A model generated the notes under the pieces. That model was not told the DNA's origin. It did not search any database and was given only the letters and a program-made list of their open reading frames with translations. A stretch of 64,000 nt of DNA, taken from positions 62,001 to 126,000 of the forward strand of contig NZ_BJDH01000006.1 of NCBI RefSeq assembly GCF_005405005.1, written 5' to 3'. The translations under genes and the position numbers were made by a program. Positions 3,408-15,718 of this stretch are shown here, piece by piece (within the stretch, counting starts at the first letter, position 1; the number at the start of each line of letters is the position of its first letter). The DNA is from Lactiplantibacillus daoliensis (lineage in GTDB: Bacteria; Bacillota; Bacilli; Lactobacillales; Lactobacillaceae).

Positions 3408-3896
3408 CTAAAAGTTGAAAGACTCAAAAGCATCACAAATGTCGCAGTACCAGAAACGATTTACCTAGCGCTCCGTCAGTCAAAACCGGTGTGCTGTGGG
3501 GGACGGCGCCAGCCAAGGTGCGGTCTGCCGCCTCAATTCAAAGCCGATAAAACACGTCTTTGAATTGCCCTGCGAGATTAGTCGGCGTTCTTGACTGACT
3601 AATCTCGCCGACACTGCACACCGATTTTGACTGACTCCACTAAACATAAATAACTGATTTATCCTCTCAAAACTACTGATTAGCTGGAGGTTGTTGCTGA
3701 TAGCATCGGATGGTCCGGGAGATTTGCGGTTTTGGCAAAGTTTCCGGGCGAGGTTCAAGACGTTTCTATGGCTTGAACCGGTCCCTCGTCCGCATATTAT
3801 CGGCAACAACCGGAAGCGGCAGTAATCGACTAGTTTTCATGACCCAATTGTTGATGCCCTCGAGAAGACCGGCAATTTTTAACTTTCAACCGTTAG
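3408..3896 (+). repeat. Family-A MITE-like structured element, copy 1
   Basis: This 489-bp non-coding element is closely similar in sequence and order to the element at 47699-48211 and, in reverse, to that at 51006-51398. Its ends are imperfect inverted repeats (CTAAAAGTTGAAAG and CTTTCAACCGTTAG) flanked by the 8-bp direct repeat TAATTTAT. Inside, TCAGTCAAAaCCGGTGTGC (3476-3494) pairs with GCACACCGATTTTGACTGA (3616-3634), with one mismatch. A second half holds further GC-rich hairpins. Short open frames here are not conserved between copies. It is probably a non-autonomous transposable element; no transposase is present. Confidence 0.8.
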
Positions 3897-3905
3897 TAAT
3901 TTATA

Positions 3906-9066: not shown

Positions 9067-9759
9067 ATGGCAAAATTAGTATTGATTCGTCACGGTCAAA
9101 GTGAATGGAACCTGTCAAACCAATTTACGGGTTGGGTTGACGTTGATTTAAGTGAAAAGGGTGTTGAAGAAGCTAAAGCTGCTGGTAAGAAAGTTGCCGA
9201 AGCTGGCTTGAAGTTTGATTATGCCTTTACTTCAGTTTTGACTCGTGCCATCAAGACATTGCACTACGTTTTGGAAGAATCTGACCAACTTTGGATTCCT
9301 GAAACCAAGACTTGGCGCTTAAACGAACGTCATTATGGCGCATTACAAGGTTTGAACAAGAAGGAAACCGCTGAAAAATACGGTGACGACCAAGTTCATA
9401 TCTGGCGTCGTTCATATGACGTTTTACCTCCATTATTGAGTGCTGATGATGAAGGTTCAGCTGTTAACGATCGTCGTTATGCTGACTTAGACCCTAACAT
9501 CGTCCCTGGTGGCGAAAACTTGAAGGTTACTTTGGAACGGGTTATGCCTTTCTGGGAAGACCAAATTGCTCCAAAGTTGCTCGATGGTAAGAACGTCATC
9601 ATCGCAGCCCATGGTAACTCATTACGTGCCCTTTCAAAATACATCGAACAGATTTCTGACGATGATATTATGAATCTTGAAATGGCTACTGGTGAACCAG
9701 TTGTCTATGATTTCGACGAAAAGTTGAATGTCTTAGGCAAAGAAAAGTTAGGCAAATAA
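9067..9759 (+). CDS. gpmA: 2,3-bisphosphoglycerate-dependent phosphoglycerate mutase
   Basis: The 230-residue enzyme interconverts 3- and 2-phosphoglycerate in glycolysis. The phosphohistidine motif [10 protein letters not shown] lies at residues 6-15, [11 protein letters not shown] near 90, and the second catalytic His is in AAHGNSLR near 181. The length is usual for Gram-positive dPGM. The codon use is biased toward frequent codons, as in highly expressed genes. GAAAGAGGT precedes ATG 9067, and a strong hairpin follows at 9788-9818. A diverged 3' duplicate lies at 14768-14980. Confidence 0.95.
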
Positions 9760-9787
9760 TTAGCTAATTATTTACTGATTTTAGAAG

Positions 9788-9818
9788 AAGCGCCCGCACT
9801 TGTGGGGGGCGCTTTTTT
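9788..9818 (+). terminator. gpmA terminator
   Basis: AAGCGCCC pairs with GGGCGCTT and is followed by T's. A near-identical hairpin follows the truncated gpm copy at 15009-15038. Confidence 0.85.
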
Positions 9819-9951
9819 ATGGCTCTAAATTCGGCTAAGTTGCGATAACTTAGGGTGAGTTTGGCAATTTGTGACAACAAACGGACGCTAAATGGACACT
9901 ACTACTTTCAATTTAGTTTGTTAACTTTCTGAAAATCAAGGAGGACTTTAC

Positions 9952-10167
9952 ATGTATGATGAAGCAGAATTATTAGAAGCCAAACGGCAAATTGATTCAA
10001 CCTTGCATAAGATTCGTGAAGTTGTGAAGACTTTTGAAGCTAAGGATGATCCATCACGGTATAAGTCTCAATTGACACTGGCTAAACGTCGATTGAAAGC
10101 TTTTGGGATTGCTAATCAGTTGATTGAAGATAAGTTAGCGGAGTTGAAAGCAGCTAGTGGACGCTAA
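9952..10167 (+). CDS. Small helical protein of unknown function (71 aa)
   Basis: The 71-residue charged, strongly helical protein (many Lys, Glu, Leu) may form a coiled coil or helical hairpin. No family is recognised. AAGGAGG lies 9 bp before ATG 9952, so it is a credible gene. It sits between gpm and copy 1 of the 81-aa gene. In the otherwise parallel segment at 14768-15507 this gene is missing: the sequence jumps from the gpm-downstream region to the end of this gene, joining at a shared GCTA. Confidence 0.6.
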   Translation: MYDEAELLEAKRQIDSTLHKIREVVKTFEAKDDPSRYKSQLTLAKRRLKAFGIANQLIEDKLAELKAASGR

Positions 10168-10299
10168 ATGGGCACTAGCCATTAAGATTTAGAGATACTC
10201 GAGCATGAGTTGAAAATGACTCTCCGGGACCTCCCACATCTCCTACGAGAGTTGGCATAAGATTAAGACAAAGAGAATTGATAAGGGGTATTTGAATAC

Positions 10300-10545
10300 A
10301 TGAGTGAAACAGCAGCAAACGAAGTCACACAACGCGAAATGATCCGGATTATTGGGCTGTTCCGTAAGAATGGTTTTAAAGGTGAATACGTGAGTTTCCA
10401 ACATGTTGTTGATGAAGGGGCTAGTTACTTCGTTGTCATGTCTGATGAAAATAATGGGACGCAGGGCTTATTTAAAGCTGATTTGTTAGCTGGGACGATT
10501 GAATTCCAATATATGTTGGATGAGAATCACGCAGTAGCTAAGTAA
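10300..10545 (+). CDS. 81-aa paralogue array protein, copy 1
   Basis: The 81-residue soluble protein has a predicted alpha/beta make-up: REMIRIIGLFRKNGF helix, then beta-rich YFVVMSDENNGTQGLFKADLLAGTIEFQYM. The family is unrecognised. Three intact copies (10300, 11493, 15259) and one decayed copy (about 15637-15718) occur within 6 kb. The proteins differ at only a few residues while third codon positions differ often, so the sequence is under constraint. GGGG about 10 bp before ATG (GGGGTATTTGAATAC) is the shared ribosome site. Confidence 0.7.
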   Translation: MSETAANEVTQREMIRIIGLFRKNGFKGEYVSFQHVVDEGASYFVVMSDENNGTQGLFKADLLAGTIEFQYMLDENHAVAK

Positions 10546-10674
10546 ATGGAATTGAACAGTTTAAAAAAACAGTAATGTAGTTAGGAAGGAAACCCTGATT
10601 TTTCGGGATAATTCTAAAGTAATATTTGTAGTTGAAGATATGGTATTATCTATATTTGGTTTTGGGGGGATAGT

Positions 10675-11415
10675 ATGAATTTTATAATGACTCATTTTTC
10701 AGGGATATTAGAATTATTAACAGCTATTATTGGTTTTCTTCAAGTTACACATGCAAGGAAAAATGATAGAGTAATTCAAAATGAAATAAGAAGTAACAAC
10801 TTCAATACTAATAATGTTAATGGAAACAATAACACCGGTAATATGAGTATTGCACAAACTATCATTTCAACGGGTAGTAGTGAATCTAATGATAAAGAAT
10901 GGCGGAGAAATAAAGAACAACATGGCTATTTTTTTATTGTTATTTTTATAGTGTTCCTGATAGTTACATTTATGCCGCTCTTTTATCAGTCCGGAAAATT
11001 TACAATAACTGGCCTTGATCTAATGCACAAAGAATATATTGCACGGAAGTCATTAATATTGTTTATAAGATGTGTATCGATTTTCTCTTTTGTTTTACTA
11101 ATCAATTATTGGTTTTTTAGAAAGCCGTGGATTCAAAAGCAAGAGCATGAAATTTCTATACTTATTCCACTAAGAATAGTTGCCGCTATTTTGTGGACTC
11201 TGGTCCCATTTGGTATTGCATGGTTAAGCATGAGGTTGAGTAGCGAGAATGTTCCAACATTTATTTTAATTGCTTATGTAATATCACTGTTTTGGTATCT
11301 TAAGCTTTTTTATAATATTTCAATTCTTAATACTTATTATTTTTTCAAAAAAAGTAACATATGGACTCATGTATTGGCATGGGTGCCAACGATAGTTCTA
11401 CTACTTTTAATTTAA
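10675..11415 (+). CDS. AT-rich multispanning membrane protein, unknown (cargo)
   Basis: The 246-residue protein has an N-terminal hydrophobic segment (residues 4-22), an Asn-rich polar stretch (NNFNTNNVNGNNNTGN, about 42-58) and then about four more membrane segments, with SSESNDKEWRRNKEQ before the second. No family is recognised. Base composition is clearly more AT-rich than the neighbours and rare codons (ATA, AGA) are common, which suggests transfer from elsewhere. TTTGGGGGGATAGT provides the ribosome site. It lies between copies 1 and 2 of the 81-aa gene, so it is cargo in the array. A role in defence or bacteriocin immunity is only speculation. Confidence 0.6.
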   Translation: MNFIMTHFSGILELLTAIIGFLQVTHARKNDRVIQNEIRSNNFNTNNVNGNNNTGNMSIAQTIISTGSSESNDKEWRRNKEQHGYFFIVIFIVFLIVTFMPLFYQSGKFTITGLDLMHKEYIARKSLILFIRCVSIFSFVLLINYWFFRKPWIQKQEHEISILIPLRIVAAILWTLVPFGIAWLSMRLSSENVPTFILIAYVISLFWYLKLFYNISILNTYYFFKKSNIWTHVLAWVPTIVLLLLI

Positions 11416-11492
11416 GAGTATATTATTGGTAAAATGCAGAATGATTAAATTTTTTTGTAATAGGATTCAGATGTATAGGGGTATTTGAGTAC

Positions 11493-11738
11493 ATGAGTGA
11501 AACAGTAGCAAATGAAGTCACACAACGCGAAATGATCCGGATCATTGGGTTGTTCCGTAAGAATGGGTTTAAAGGCGAATACGTGGGTTTCCAGCACGTC
11601 GTTGACGAAGGGGCTAGTTACTTCGTTGTGATGTCAGATGAAAACAATGGAACTCAAGGCTTATTTAAAGCCGACTTGTTAGCTGGGACGATTGAATTCC
11701 AATATATGTTGGATGAAAATCATGAAGTTGCTAAGTAA
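11493..11738 (+). CDS. 81-aa paralogue array protein, copy 2
   Basis: The 81-residue protein matches copy 1 except for about three residues (A5V, S27G, A78E), while many codons differ silently. Only the last ~20 bp before the ATG (ATAGGGGTATTTGAGTACATG) resemble the leader of the other copies; farther upstream the sequence is that of the AT-rich membrane gene region. This marks a recombination joint just before the ribosome site. Function unknown. Confidence 0.7.
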   Translation: MSETVANEVTQREMIRIIGLFRKNGFKGEYVGFQHVVDEGASYFVVMSDENNGTQGLFKADLLAGTIEFQYMLDENHEVAK

Positions 11739-12231
11739 ATAGAACTAGTTGAAAAGGTGGTTAACGTCACCTCTTCTGGTTCTCTGTCAAACAACCTAAA
11801 GTCAGAGGTATCAAGATTGTCGTTACAATTTTGATGCCTCTTTTACTATACTTAAATTGAGGTTGAAGTTAGCATTGCGACTCCGAATATTGGTGATTGC
11901 CAAATAACGCTGGTAGCTCAAGCTGGAAGTCAATCGCCAATTTAAAATTTTTCCAGAATCTCGCTTAAGATTCAACGTAGTGTATTTGTACCAAGCTCAG
12001 CCTTGCACTAGAGAGTATATTTTCGATATTTGCTCAGCACAGTTCCAGTATGTTATTTAAACACGCGCATAAAATGTTTTAGGCTTTCAAAAAATATTCC
12101 CCAATTATGTTGACCAGATCGATGGTTGTTGATAAAAGATATCTAGCATAAATTGATCTTTTCCTCTAAAATGTTCAGCCTCATAGGCACATAATCCAGC
12201 AGTTGAAACATTACAAATATTTTCAGACCCT
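11739..12231. other. Gene-poor spacer with terminator, before integrase remnant
   Basis: About 490 bp without a supported gene. A hairpin after copy 2 (AGGTG/CACCT) and a stronger one at 11804-11845 (AGAGGTATCAA / TTGATGCCTCT plus T's) end transcription. The rest is unassigned and may be decayed mobile DNA. Confidence 0.5.
11804..11845 (+). terminator. Terminator downstream of 81-aa copy 2
   Basis: AGAGGTATCAA pairs with TTGATGCCTCT (one G-U) and is followed by TTTTA. Confidence 0.65.
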
Positions 12232-12801
12232 ATGAGGACTAAATCAGATGATAAGAAATTTATGGCGATTGCTGATTTCAAGAAGATTAGGAACTTTTTG
12301 CTAAGCTATCATTATAAATTGACGGATGTAGATCGGTTGGCATTACTGATAATATCGCAATCTGGACTGCGTGTCGGTGAATGTTTAGCACTTAAGTATG
12401 ATGACATCGATTTTCTTCATAAGACGCTACCTCCTCGAGTAGTTAGCATATTAGATTAGTGGGTGAGGTATCATCGGCAAGCTCTATTTAGAAATGGTGT
12501 AAGCAACCCGGACCATTTTCTATTGTGGAATAAAGAAGGCCGATTGCCCCGTTCTAGTTCAATCAATACAGCATATCATCAAGTTCAAAAAAAGTTAGGA
12601 GTGGAACCAAAGTTCAGTATGCATACGCTTAGGCATATGTTAGCAAGCTTGATGGTCGGAAGCAAGGATATCTCGTTGAGTTATGTTTCAAAGTATCTTG
12701 GGCATGCTAGTGTTTTGATGACGCAGAAATACTATATTGGGCTGTTGCCCGAACAGGTAGAGGTGGAAGCTGGTAAAGTTGCAAAGGTGATAGCAGAGTA
12801 A
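12232..12801 (+). pseudogene. Tyrosine recombinase (phage/ICE integrase) remnant
   Basis: Two same-frame pieces, split only by TAG at 12457-12459, carry the catalytic landmarks of a tyrosine integrase. SGLRVGECLALKYDDID holds the first Arg, HTLRHMLAS the HxxR, and KYLGHASVLMTQKYY the final His and nucleophile Tyr. The stop falls where ILDQW would be expected, so CAG to TAG is likely. The segment between the first Arg motif and RVVSILD is too short by an estimated 25-35 residues, and the N-terminal arm- and core-binding domains are mostly absent. The gene is therefore dead in three ways. It marks the patch as a former mobile element. Confidence 0.85.
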
Positions 12802-12807
12802 TTATTG

Positions 12808-12847
12808 AAAGATAGGCCATTATTGGCCAGTGACCTATCTTTTTTTT
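12808..12847 (+). terminator. Terminator between integrase remnant and OLD gene
   Basis: AAAGATAGG pairs with CCTATCTTT, and an internal GGCC..GGCC pairing extends it; eight T follow. Confidence 0.8.
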
Positions 12848-12896
12848 GTTAATATTGTATGATTACTGTATATAACAGTGATCAGGGGGCATTTGA

Positions 12897-14591
12897 ATGA
12901 TTGAATCATTGACCTTTAATGGCTATAAAAATTTTTCAAAGGAATCGATGAGTGGATTTGAAGAAATTTATCCGATTAATTTAATAATTGGGAAAAATAA
13001 CATTGGTAAATCTAGCTTATTACAAATGATTACAAGTCTATCGACTAGAGATTTATTCAATAAATGGGGAAAACAAGCTGATGTTGTGCGGATAACATGT
13101 ACTGCAAGTAAAAAGAGAATTGAAAAATTTTTTAGCAGTAGAACTGGTGGTGGTGATATATATGGTAATCACTGGAGGTATGGTAAACAATTTGTAGGAT
13201 ATATGGTAAGAGGAGAGTTGATTTTTAATCAGTCACGCGGTGTGTCTGTAAAAAATGTGCAGGTGAGCGAGTCACGGGATAATTTGAATGATTTTAAAAC
13301 TCCAGAGCAAGGGATTGATGAATGGACCTATCTAATTAGTGGTTCTGTTATGGATGAAGTGAATCAGACTATCGTAAGGTTGTCTGCTGATAGGAACATG
13401 ATTCCTGAAGTTGCACAAAATGAAATGAGTGTATTGTCAGATGGAAGTGGCGCGACTAATGTAATAAGAGCCTATTTAAATAAGTCTAAGTTAGATAGTA
13501 ATCGTGTTCAAAAAGATTTGCTAAATGCTTTAAATACGATAATGCAGGGTGAAGATTTTTTCTCAGATATCGTTTCTCAGGAAATAGATGAAGAAGATAA
13601 TCCGCATTGGGAAACGTTCTTGACTGAGAAGGATAAGGGACAAATAGCATTATCTGATTCTGGTAGTGGATTACGAACAATCTTATTGGTATTAGTAAAG
13701 CTATTTTTGGTCAAAAAGGGATCGGTGTATGTTTTTGAGGAGTTAGAAAATAATTTACATCCTGCCATACAGCGAAGTTTGTTTAGATTTATTTTTAAAT
13801 GGATCAAAGACAATAATGTATATCTATTCTTAACTTCACATTCTAATATTCCTATCGATATGTGTATCTCAGATGATAAAGCACAAATTATACATGTTCA
13901 TAAGGCTAACGGGGGAGTTGTAGCAACACCTGCAGTTAGTTTTAGACAAAACGATGATATTTTGCAGGATCTAGGTGTTCACGGTAGTGACTTGCTACAA
14001 TCAAATGGCATTATTTGGGTTGAGGGCCCTTCAGATCGAGTTTATTTGAATGCATGGCTAAAGTTGTTATCTGGTGGAAAAATTATTGAAAATAAGCATT
14101 ATCAAATAATGTTTTATGGTGGAAGGCTCCTTGCACACCTGTCAGGAACTCCTAAAAATGAGCTGATTTCGTTATTATTGGCTAATCATAACTCTGCTAT
14201 TATTATGGATAGTGATAGAACGAGTAAAGGTAAAAGAATAAATGTAACCAAGAATAGGGTGAAAAGGGAATTCGAAGATGCTGGCAAATTTGTTTGGATT
14301 ACAATGGGTAAAGAAATTGAAAACTATTTGTCACCACGTGTTCTTTCACAATATTTTGGGAAAAATAATTCAAATTTAGAGTTAGAACAATACGCTAAGA
14401 TTAACGAATATCTAGATGAAAAATATAAACAACGGCAGTCTGCCTTTCAAGGAAAACAATATACAAGTAATAAAGTCGGAAACTCGCGTAAGATTGTGTC
14501 ACTATTTAGTGATGCGGATTTAGATGTTTTAGATTTGCGTCGACAAATGCAAAAATTATTGGATACTATTACTATTTGGAATAAAATTTAG
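12897..14591 (+). CDS. OLD family ATP-dependent endonuclease (ABC-type ATPase + TOPRIM), candidate phage defence
   Basis: The 564-residue protein has an N-terminal ABC/SMC-like ATPase with Walker A GKNNIGKSS (32-40), a signature-like SDSGSGLRT (about 257-265), Walker B VFEELENNLHP (E281-E282) and a switch His in LTSHSN. The C-terminal TOPRIM half has WVEGPSDR (Glu 376) and MDSD (438-440). That combination defines OLD/GajA-type nucleases. No UvrD/GajB-like helicase gene follows, so it fits a stand-alone class 1 OLD rather than Gabija. OLD proteins can act against phages, but activity here is inferred. Strong AT-rich codon use and the adjacent dead integrase indicate acquisition. GATCAGGGGG precedes ATG 12897. 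Confidence 0.85.
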   Translation: MIESLTFNGYKNFSKESMSGFEEIYPINLIIGKNNIGKSSLLQMITSLSTRDLFNKWGKQADVVRITCTASKKRIEKFFSSRTGGGDIYGNHWRYGKQFVGYMVRGELIFNQSRGVSVKNVQVSESRDNLNDFKTPEQGIDEWTYLISGSVMDEVNQTIVRLSADRNMIPEVAQNEMSVLSDGSGATNVIRAYLNKSKLDSNRVQKDLLNALNTIMQGEDFFSDIVSQEIDEEDNPHWETFLTEKDKGQIALSDSGSGLRTILLVLVKLFLVKKGSVYVFEELENNLHPAIQRSLFRFIFKWIKDNNVYLFLTSHSNIPIDMCISDDKAQIIHVHKANGGVVATPAVSFRQNDDILQDLGVHGSDLLQSNGIIWVEGPSDRVYLNAWLKLLSGGKIIENKHYQIMFYGGRLLAHLSGTPKNELISLLLANHNSAIIMDSDRTSKGKRINVTKNRVKREFEDAGKFVWITMGKEIENYLSPRVLSQYFGKNNSNLELEQYAKINEYLDEKYKQRQSAFQGKQYTSNKVGNSRKIVSLFSDADLDVLDLRRQMQKLLDTITIWNKI

Positions 14592-14767
14592 TGGATATTT
14601 GCTGTTTCCTGAATAAAAATTAAAAAACCAAATTCTAATATTTATGTTATAAATCCCGTTAACTTAAGGTTTTGTATGATGAGCTTGACTAATAATGGAC
14701 ACTACTAATTTCTGACTAATGCTTGGATATGCTGTAGTAGCAATGGTTAGAGGTATATTAAGGCTCT
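14592..14767. other. Junction spacer upstream of truncated gpm
   Basis: No gene seen. ATGGACACTACTA (14694-14706) also occurs downstream of the intact gpm (9892-9904), which suggests a former recombination joint. Confidence 0.4.
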
Positions 14768-14980
14768 CCTTTCTGGGAAGACCAAATTGCTCCTAAGTTG
14801 CTTGATGGTAAGAACGTCATCATCGCAGCCCATGGTAACTCATTACGTGCCTTAAGCAAGTACATTGAAAACATCTCTGATGATGATATCATGAACTTGG
14901 AAATGGCTACTGGTGAACCAGTTGTTTATGACTTCGATGAAAAATTGAACGTCTTAGGCAAAGAGAAGTTAGGCAAATAA
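14768..14980 (+). pseudogene. Truncated second phosphoglycerate mutase 3' end
   Basis: Codons for the last 70 residues of a phosphoglycerate mutase ([12 protein letters not shown] through GKEKLGK) match residues 161-230 of the complete gene at 9067-9759 almost exactly in protein but with scattered synonymous differences. The first 160 codons, including LIRHG, are absent. An ATG at 14798 could start a 60-residue peptide without an active site. The downstream hairpin and spacer are also duplicated. The synonymous drift points to a donor from a different strain or an old duplication rather than a recent copy. Confidence 0.9.
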
Positions 14981-15008
14981 TCAGCCGATTATTTACTGAT
15001 TTTATAAG

Positions 15009-15038
15009 AAGCGCCCGCTTAGTGGGGGGCGCTTTTTT
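15009..15038 (+). terminator. Duplicated gpm terminator
   Basis: AAGCGCCC / GGGCGCTT plus T's, parallel to the hairpin at 9788-9818. Confidence 0.8.
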
Positions 15039-15258
15039 ATGGCCCAAAATTCGGCTAAGTTGAGATAACTTAGGATAAGTTTGGCAATTAATGACAAATT
15101 CGGACGCTAGTGGACGCTAAATGGGCACTAGCAATTAAGATTTAGGGACGCATGGAGTTGACTGAAATAGGTACCCGTGAGCCCCCGTAGCATCCGCGGG
15201 AATGCGAAGCGTAAGCGATTGAATAAGAAGACAAGAATTGATAGGGGTATTTGAATAC

Positions 15259-15507
15259 ATGAGTGAAGCAACAAATGCAAACGAAGTTACACAACGCGAA
15301 ATGATCCGGATTATTGGCTTGTTTCGCAAGAACGGTTTTAAGGGCGAATACGTCAGTTTCCAACATGTCGTTGACGAAGGGGCTAGTTACTTCGTCGTGA
15401 TGTCAGATGAGAATAACGGAACACAAGGCTTGTTTAAAGCAGACTTGTTAGCTGGGACGATTGAATTCCAGTATATGTTGGATGAAAATCATGAAGTTGC
15501 TAAGTAA
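15259..15507 (+). CDS. 81-aa paralogue array protein, copy 3 (82 aa)
   Basis: The 82-residue copy has a slightly altered N-terminus (MSEATNANEV) and then a sequence nearly identical to copies 1 and 2. The start is ATG 15259 with GGGGTATTTGAATAC before it; a TTG 21 bp upstream only extends the frame through that site. It lies in the second gpm-like unit, which lacks the 71-aa gene. Silent differences from copies 1 and 2 are numerous. A hairpin with a T-run follows. Function unknown. Confidence 0.7.
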   Translation: MSEATNANEVTQREMIRIIGLFRKNGFKGEYVSFQHVVDEGASYFVVMSDENNGTQGLFKADLLAGTIEFQYMLDENHEVAK

Positions 15508-15519
15508 ATAGAACGAGTT

Positions 15520-15549
15520 GAAGGGATGGCTGTTGCTATCTCTTTTTTT
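15520..15549 (+). terminator. Terminator after 81-aa copy 3
   Basis: AGGGATGGC..GCTATCTCT pairing with a T7 run. Confidence 0.55.
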
Positions 15550-15636
15550 GATGCATATGAAGACTATCAATATTAATTTGAAAGCTGGTATACTTTGCAA
15601 TGACTTTATAAAGTGTAGAATCTATGACTGTCGAGA

Positions 15637-15718
15637 TAAGCTTGAATAAGCCGAGAAACCAGTAAAGACGATTGAATTCTAATATATGCTGAATGAAAAT
15701 CATGAAGTTGCTAAGTAA
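15637..15718 (+). pseudogene. Decayed fourth copy of the 81-aa gene (3' fragment)
   Basis: The last ~17 codons (TIEF.YMLNENHEVAK) align with the 3' ends of the intact copies; the Gln codon of EFQYM has become TAA. Weaker similarity reaches back to about 15637. A terminator-like hairpin follows at 15731-15760, as after the other copies. Confidence 0.75.

Follow-up and report, generated by a model that had tools for sequence, protein, structure and literature searches.

Behind the gpm gene of Lactiplantibacillus daoliensis, in a stretch of 64,000 nucleotides (contig NZ_BJDH01000006.1, positions 62,001 to 126,000; called the window here), a gene of 81 codons that we name p81 recurs with unrelated genes between its copies. 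What assembled this interval? An earlier sequence-only reading placed the point of entry at p81 itself, with cargo from other strains brought in by repeated homologous recombination. Comparison with related genomes points elsewhere: judged from the alignments, insertion takes place at codon 161 of gpm, a neighbouring glycolytic gene, and not at p81, and the interval is very probably a decayed pile-up of site-specific integrative elements that use gpm as their chromosomal target. Mobile DNA with anti-phage genes appears to insert at one fixed point in gpm and to replace the tail of the gene, and the p81 array is best read as debris of such insertions.

Displaced 3' ends of gpm were examined as DNA in 14 copies from 11 genomes of 6 genera (genomes carry G numbers and loci L numbers). 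In all 14, similarity to the genome's own gpm begins at nucleotides 474-484, and in 12 at 479-484, just 5' of the core TTCTGGGAAGA; upstream of this edge there is no gpm similarity. Every copy agrees with its own gpm at 68-100 of 100 nucleotides below the core, against 11-20 of 60 above the edge. The displaced ends of G000, G004, G006 and G010 start at the same base and are preceded by unrelated DNA. Five further genomes hold displaced ends recognised at the protein level, which brings the total to eight genera of Lactobacillaceae with a common break in gpm at the core CC[A/T]TTCTGGGAAGA, codons 161-165. The shared breakpoint (codons 158-162) is also found in genera in which the p81 search found none. 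Direct repeats begin at the breakpoint in G000, G006, G010, G072, G098, G140, G249, G283, G287 and G240. Within the genus, sampled as 21 genomes with one per species, displaced ends occur in five (G000, G001, G004, G006 and G010).

The 14-nt core was also searched for as a pattern, allowing up to two mismatches. In the window it matches twice, both times exactly, and 6 of 100 shuffled windows likewise gave at least two matches. Among 301 Lactobacillaceae genomes it occurs in 229, as expected of a conserved gene, and a reversed control pattern gave none among the matches listed. At least two matches on the same strand were found in 19 of the 301, and 15 of these have confirmed displaced gpm ends (10 by DNA, 5 by protein). 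No viral contig contains the pattern. The gpm tail matches five plasmid and four phage records, of which H26, H27, H28 and H21 were inspected: the first three are unannotated records in which no element was seen, and H21, from an L. crispatus plasmid, is a complete gpm gene. Three unannotated records filed as phages (OR846836.1, OR848167.1 and PQ520398.1) hold gpm-like DNA, and our guess is that this is host DNA.

In three sister pairs the divergence of gpm steps up at the core. Nucleotides 1-480 and 481-690 contain, respectively, 1 and 24 differences in G000/G009, 2 and 16 in G003/G017, and 4 and 28 in G011/G020, or 0.2-0.8% against 7.6-13.3%; these pairs were selected for nearly identical 5' parts from 12 species pairs compared altogether. 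Their pooled change-point falls at nucleotide 494 (489-494), the last base of the core, while eno differs in the same pairs by 2.5, 1.0 and 0.5% without any step. The displaced tail of G000 is 95.8% identical to the tails of G009, G003 and G020, compared with 87.9% to its own intact tail, and in G004 the intact tail is of the L. plantarum type and the displaced one of the local type. By these sequence comparisons we show that in several species the part of gpm past the core was evidently derived from another lineage. The reading frame is whole in all 21 genus genomes and in G098, G140, G249, G283, G287 and G240, and the replaced part holds a catalytic histidine of this enzyme family, in the motif AAHGNSLR.

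A family of tyrosine integrases, IntB, accompanies the site. Relatives called at E<=1e-40 were found in 13 of the 301 genomes, in eight of them on the same contig as a gpm end, intact or displaced (G000, G006, G098, G140, G184, G249, G266 and G280). In the fullest elements, one or two tyrosine integrases are accompanied by genes for a DNA polymerase A, a D5-type primase, a DUF1643 protein and a small helix-turn-helix (HTH) protein. The G249 element lies between gpm repeats at a distance of 15.0 kb and contains the polymerase, the primase, two integrases, the DUF1643 gene and a small gene resembling the G140 HTH gene; its IntB stops about 190 bp upstream of the displaced core. The elements of G140 (13.8 kb) and G098 (11.7 kb) have one IntB each, and the G266 span is 16.8 kb. 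DUF1643 lies immediately before IntB in G249 (two contigs), G278, G184, G266 and G010 and takes another position in G140 and G098. Two related integrases, IntA and IntB, about 34-36% identical, share one element in L107 (4211-5353 and 2339-3547, reverse strand); an IntA/IntB and DUF1643 arrangement was noted in L107, L108, L111, L112 and L043/L044.

The integrase is encoded inside the island in G249, G140, G098, G266 and G010. It is broken in G006 and in the window, where its N-terminal part was not found, and the fetched loci of G283, G240 and G287 gave no integrase match. The G283 locus has four gpm cores with genes between them and the G240 locus two. On the reverse strands of these loci (L113 and L115), the stacks consist of integrase-less units bounded by gpm 3' ends, with one to three genes each; a 486-aa protein of AlbA type recurs in G283, G240 and G006, which represent two genera. 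IntB has no relatives in viral contigs, and those in phages and plasmids are under 60% identical. The window integrase piece scores 20.4 bits against the IntI-type model TIGR02249, whose cut-off is 265, so it is not placed among the integron integrases; for the intact integrases only Pfam was used. The Pfam scan covered 29 proteins, a minority of the open reading frames (ORFs), and among these there were no relaxase, conjugation or mobilisation genes, nor were capsid, tail or packaging genes seen in this incomplete scan. A tRNA gene was considered as the target, and the window has none.

We propose that the integrase would recombine a site on a circular form of the element with the core in gpm. 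The element would bring a new C-terminal third of the enzyme, and since it supplies the tail, gpm would remain whole and presumably active, while the old 3' end would be displaced to the far side of the element. In Lactiplantibacillus and two other genera p81 usually lies behind the gpm end, so that each insertion there would add a copy of it. After more insertions, deletions and integrase loss, what remains would be an array of p81 and gpm fragments, between which cargo that is often anti-phage lies stranded.

Several observations weigh against this mechanism or narrow its support. Two of the 19 two-core genomes (G114 and G237) have no displaced gpm end, with G172 and G229 outside the count; the edge is not seen in G001, whose junction falls inside the core, or in a second G006 fragment, which starts from codon 185. 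The copies are partly non-independent, with two in G249 and three in G283, the junctions of G283a and G240 are identical in sequence, and G006 and G010 look related. The displaced and intact tails of these last two genomes are nearly identical (99.5 and 98.4%), so they show no foreign origin, and the two gpm pieces of G004 lie on separate contigs. Among the species pairs, nine have a smaller contrast than the selected three, two of the 12 have no rise past the core (G010/G015, and G018/G019 with 1 difference), and G000/G001 taken alone has its change-point at nucleotide 362. The tie between IntB and the core is one of proximity, with no circle or empty-site molecule seen; the integrase contigs fetched for G278 and G180 contain no gpm, that of G278 ending about 190 bp past IntB, and the eight come from ten of the 13 IntB genomes, those other than G153, G216 and G262 (about 30%). 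Finally, copy 2 of p81 in the window has no core before it.

The features of the window are collected below.

Table 1. Features at the gpm locus of the window, in window coordinates
Feature	Position	Strand	Remarks
gpm, 2,3-bisphosphoglycerate-dependent phosphoglycerate mutase type	9067-9759	+	chimera; nucleotides 1-480 (9067-9546) of local type, 481-690 from elsewhere
Core CCTTTCTGGGAAGA	9547-9560	+	proposed crossover site, attL side
Left direct repeat	9547-9901	+	gpm 3' end, terminator, spacer; locus positions 3548-3902
p71, 71-aa ORF	9952-10167	+	separate gene; behind gpm in 13 loci
p81 copy 1	10300-10545	+	
246-aa membrane-type ORF	10675-11415	+	AT-rich; between p81 copies 1 and 2
p81 copy 2	11493-11738	+	similarity to copy 1 from 11477; without gpm core before it
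Broken tyrosine integrase, IntB family	12187-12801	+	ORF pieces 12232-12459 and 12463-12801
564-aa ATPase, AAA_15/OLD/AriA/GajA-like	12897-14591	+	defence-type cargo
Core, second copy	14768-14781	+	attR side, after unrelated DNA
Displaced gpm 3' fragment	14768-14980	+	from codon 161
p81 copy 3	15259-15507	+	
p81 3' remnant	about 15650-15718	+	

The array that the sequence-only reading described is real: p81 is present as three intact genes and a 3' remnant, and the cargo, the broken integrase and the 3' fragment of gpm are there as well, with integrase, ATPase and gpm fragment all between copies 2 and 3. Its view of the interval as an acquisition site also holds, as p81 lies behind gpm in 21 of the 21 genus genomes, extra copies or remnants occur in 13 (G000, G001, G004, G006, G008-G014, G016 and G017), and the surrounding genes vary among species. 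The count of copies leaves out the weak p81-like match of G015 (46%, residues 9-40). In the cargo, the membrane ORF, the broken integrase and the gpm fragment stand as claimed, and the supposed OLD nuclease does in part: the ATPase is there, and the match to an OLD-type TOPRIM domain falls under the Pfam cut-off. Two points need correction. The ORF that opens the interval, p71, is a different gene and not a p81 copy. Repetition also extends beyond p81, to the gpm 3' end and terminator: the direct repeats at 9547-9901 and 14768-15119, which span the gpm 3' end, terminator and spacer, are 88% identical.

The copies of p81 themselves bear on how the array arose. As had been noted from the letters alone, they share their protein and differ at silent sites: over 71 codons the window copies are 87.8-90.6% identical, with 18-25 synonymous against 1-2 non-synonymous base differences, a dS (synonymous divergence) of 0.63-1.18 and a dN (non-synonymous divergence) of 0.006-0.012. 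Rows for the third G001 copy were left out as invalid (indel, out of register). With such dS values the copies are not recent tandem duplicates, a possibility that is thereby ruled out. Duplication of a local gpm-p81 block in tandem, its decay and the later, chance arrival of cargo would explain the tandem order and the nearly identical gpm tails in G006 and G010; yet a dS of 0.6-1.2 between the window copies is as large as that between species, the displaced tails of G000 and G004 are nearest to other species, and the same edge appears in 6 genera beneath unrelated DNA, all of which make this history highly improbable. Homologous recombination at p81 with DNA of other strains, which would place cargo between the copies, would account for proteins that are alike, with divergent silent sites and from different lineages, and for window copy 2 and the G035 copies, which begin just before the p81 start codon without a gpm end. 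As the main mechanism it is nevertheless improbable, since the displaced ends have a single common breakpoint in gpm, such insertions are also present at loci with no p81 found nearby (G098, G140, G249, G283, G240 and G287), and an integrase family accompanies the gpm site.

A further proposal would add to insertion at gpm instead of replacing it: p81 codons 62-66 may form a second attachment-like site for the same integrase, with blocks exchanged between the gpm and p81 sites. Remnants of p81 3' ends begin at these codons in G000, G011 and G017, and 5' remnants end there in G012 and G016. When 14 p81 copies were scanned at 223 positions each for resemblance to the 23-nt gpm site, this spot came out best in 12 (14 of 28), and window copy 2 is without a gpm core before it. 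Only 13-14 of the 23 bases match, however, other remnants break elsewhere (G008, G009, G013, G035 and G106), and the copies are related, so that the near-site matches come close to one observation; we regard the second site as possible and lean against it. Remnant ends near codons 62-66, in sequence that resembles the gpm core, were seen at 10480-10510 and 15660-15690 of the window and in L045, L051, L046 and L050.

Insertion at gpm leaves p81 as, on our best reading, a gene carried behind the gpm tail. Some parts of the arrays are closer to other species than to the same genome's own copy. The p81 remnants of G017 and G011 are nearer to the sister species (85.0 and 91.9%) than to their own p81 (66.9 and 76.9%), and in both the old p81 3' end is still joined to the sister species' downstream sequence; this old end marks the limit of the replaced block. 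Outside Lactiplantibacillus, p81 comes after gpm at four loci of Secundilactobacillus and in the genus labelled g16, although it is absent from the fetched stretch of G287 (genus g16), and a profile search found it in 14 of 151 family genomes and 3 of 40 genera. An alignment of 27 proteins has 14 invariant columns. A model of the fold (pLDDT, the predicted per-residue confidence, 83) has one helix and four predicted strands and matches nothing in PDB at E<=0.001 (best E 0.25). Identification as a phage or known defence gene was rejected, searches of Pfam, NCBIfam, PADLOC and PHROGs giving no family at E<=0.001 (the closest PHROG match has E 0.0046), and no relatives were found in plasmids, phages or viral contigs. 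Nor is p81 a required partner of the integrase: none was detected at E<=1e-5 in the fetched loci of G098, G140, G249, G283, G240 and G287. A methyltransferase-like gene, so assigned by reading its translation, lies between the gpm end and p81 in G001, G004, G005, G008, G010, G012 and G014 (L033, L036, L038, L041, L044, L046 and L048) and has relatives elsewhere in G018 and G019. In another genus (G035, L082, positions 2648 and 9229 of the reverse strand), 28 nt from the p81 3' end are repeated, with one base differing, 6.6 kb further downstream, possibly as another element end.

Much of the scanned cargo looks like anti-phage defence. The window has the OLD/AriA/GajA-like family match; PADLOC models matched DndFGH in G010, a Ppl-like PHP-ATPase in G006 and PD-Lambda-5 in G013. 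There is also an AlbA/HATPase protein in G006, type IIG restriction-modification in G249 and G140, a retron-type reverse transcriptase in G140, BnzB in G249, an endonuclease fragment in G266 and AbiH in G283. Of 20 proteins from other genomes put to PADLOC, 13 match a model at E<=1e-5 and 7 do not, which is no rate because the ORFs were picked by eye; such profile matches mark the genes as candidates for defence. Other cargo looks metabolic in translation, with apparent transporters and oxidoreductases. The 246-aa ORF of the window has no family match at E<=0.001 and no relative among the other fetched loci.

The data point to a recurrent landing place for defence genes in food and probiotic lactobacilli, and show gpm as a conserved metabolic gene whose C-terminal third is repeatedly replaced from outside, which makes it misleading as a phylogenetic marker. 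The gpm site and its integrase could serve as a tool for inserting DNA into lactobacilli. Islands that enter a gene by means of a tyrosine integrase and restore its 3' end are known (Islander/TIGER; PMC4383910, PMC12884075), as are cis-mobilizable elements (CIMEs) and the tandem accretion of integrative and conjugative or mobilizable elements (ICEs and IMEs; PMC5704250, PMC7563491). Apparently new are the gpm integration site, this element family and the chimeric gpm, none of which was found in the literature searched (most subscription papers lie outside it).

Islander/TIGER islands share with the elements at gpm a fixed point inside a conserved gene, an island-borne 3' end, a displaced fragment at the far end and an integrase; here as well, direct repeats flank both ends and the break falls at a fixed place in a single gene. 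They differ in that the target here is gpm, with a tail of about 210 nt, and in that the genera with p81 repeat a whole further gene. The stacks of G283 and G240 resemble CIMEs and tandem accretion in their integrase-less units with retained ends at one site, whereas the fullest elements carry a polymerase and a primase, with no conjugation or mobilisation genes identified among the proteins scanned.

Phage satellites such as the phage-inducible chromosomal islands (PICI) and P4-like elements combine an integrase, a small HTH protein and a primase in 10-17 kb with defence cargo. The elements at gpm are alike in all of these; they differ in having no close relative in phage or viral collections and no phage dependence shown. 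Integron cassette arrays, in turn, stack short units at a single site, and every unit has a recombination end of its own. It is conceivable, if rather doubtful, that gpm serves Lactobacillaceae as the entry gate of an integron-like cassette system, in which each cassette would consist of a gpm 3' end and one to three genes, often for defence, inserted serially at codon 161 by an integrase acting in trans. If so, the newest cassette would supply the C-terminal part of a central metabolic enzyme, and the cassette next to gpm would therefore be hard to lose by simple deletion. The stacked short units with their own recombination ends in G283 are shared with integron arrays, whereas the integrase here is of phage type and the repeated end is the 3' end of a gene.

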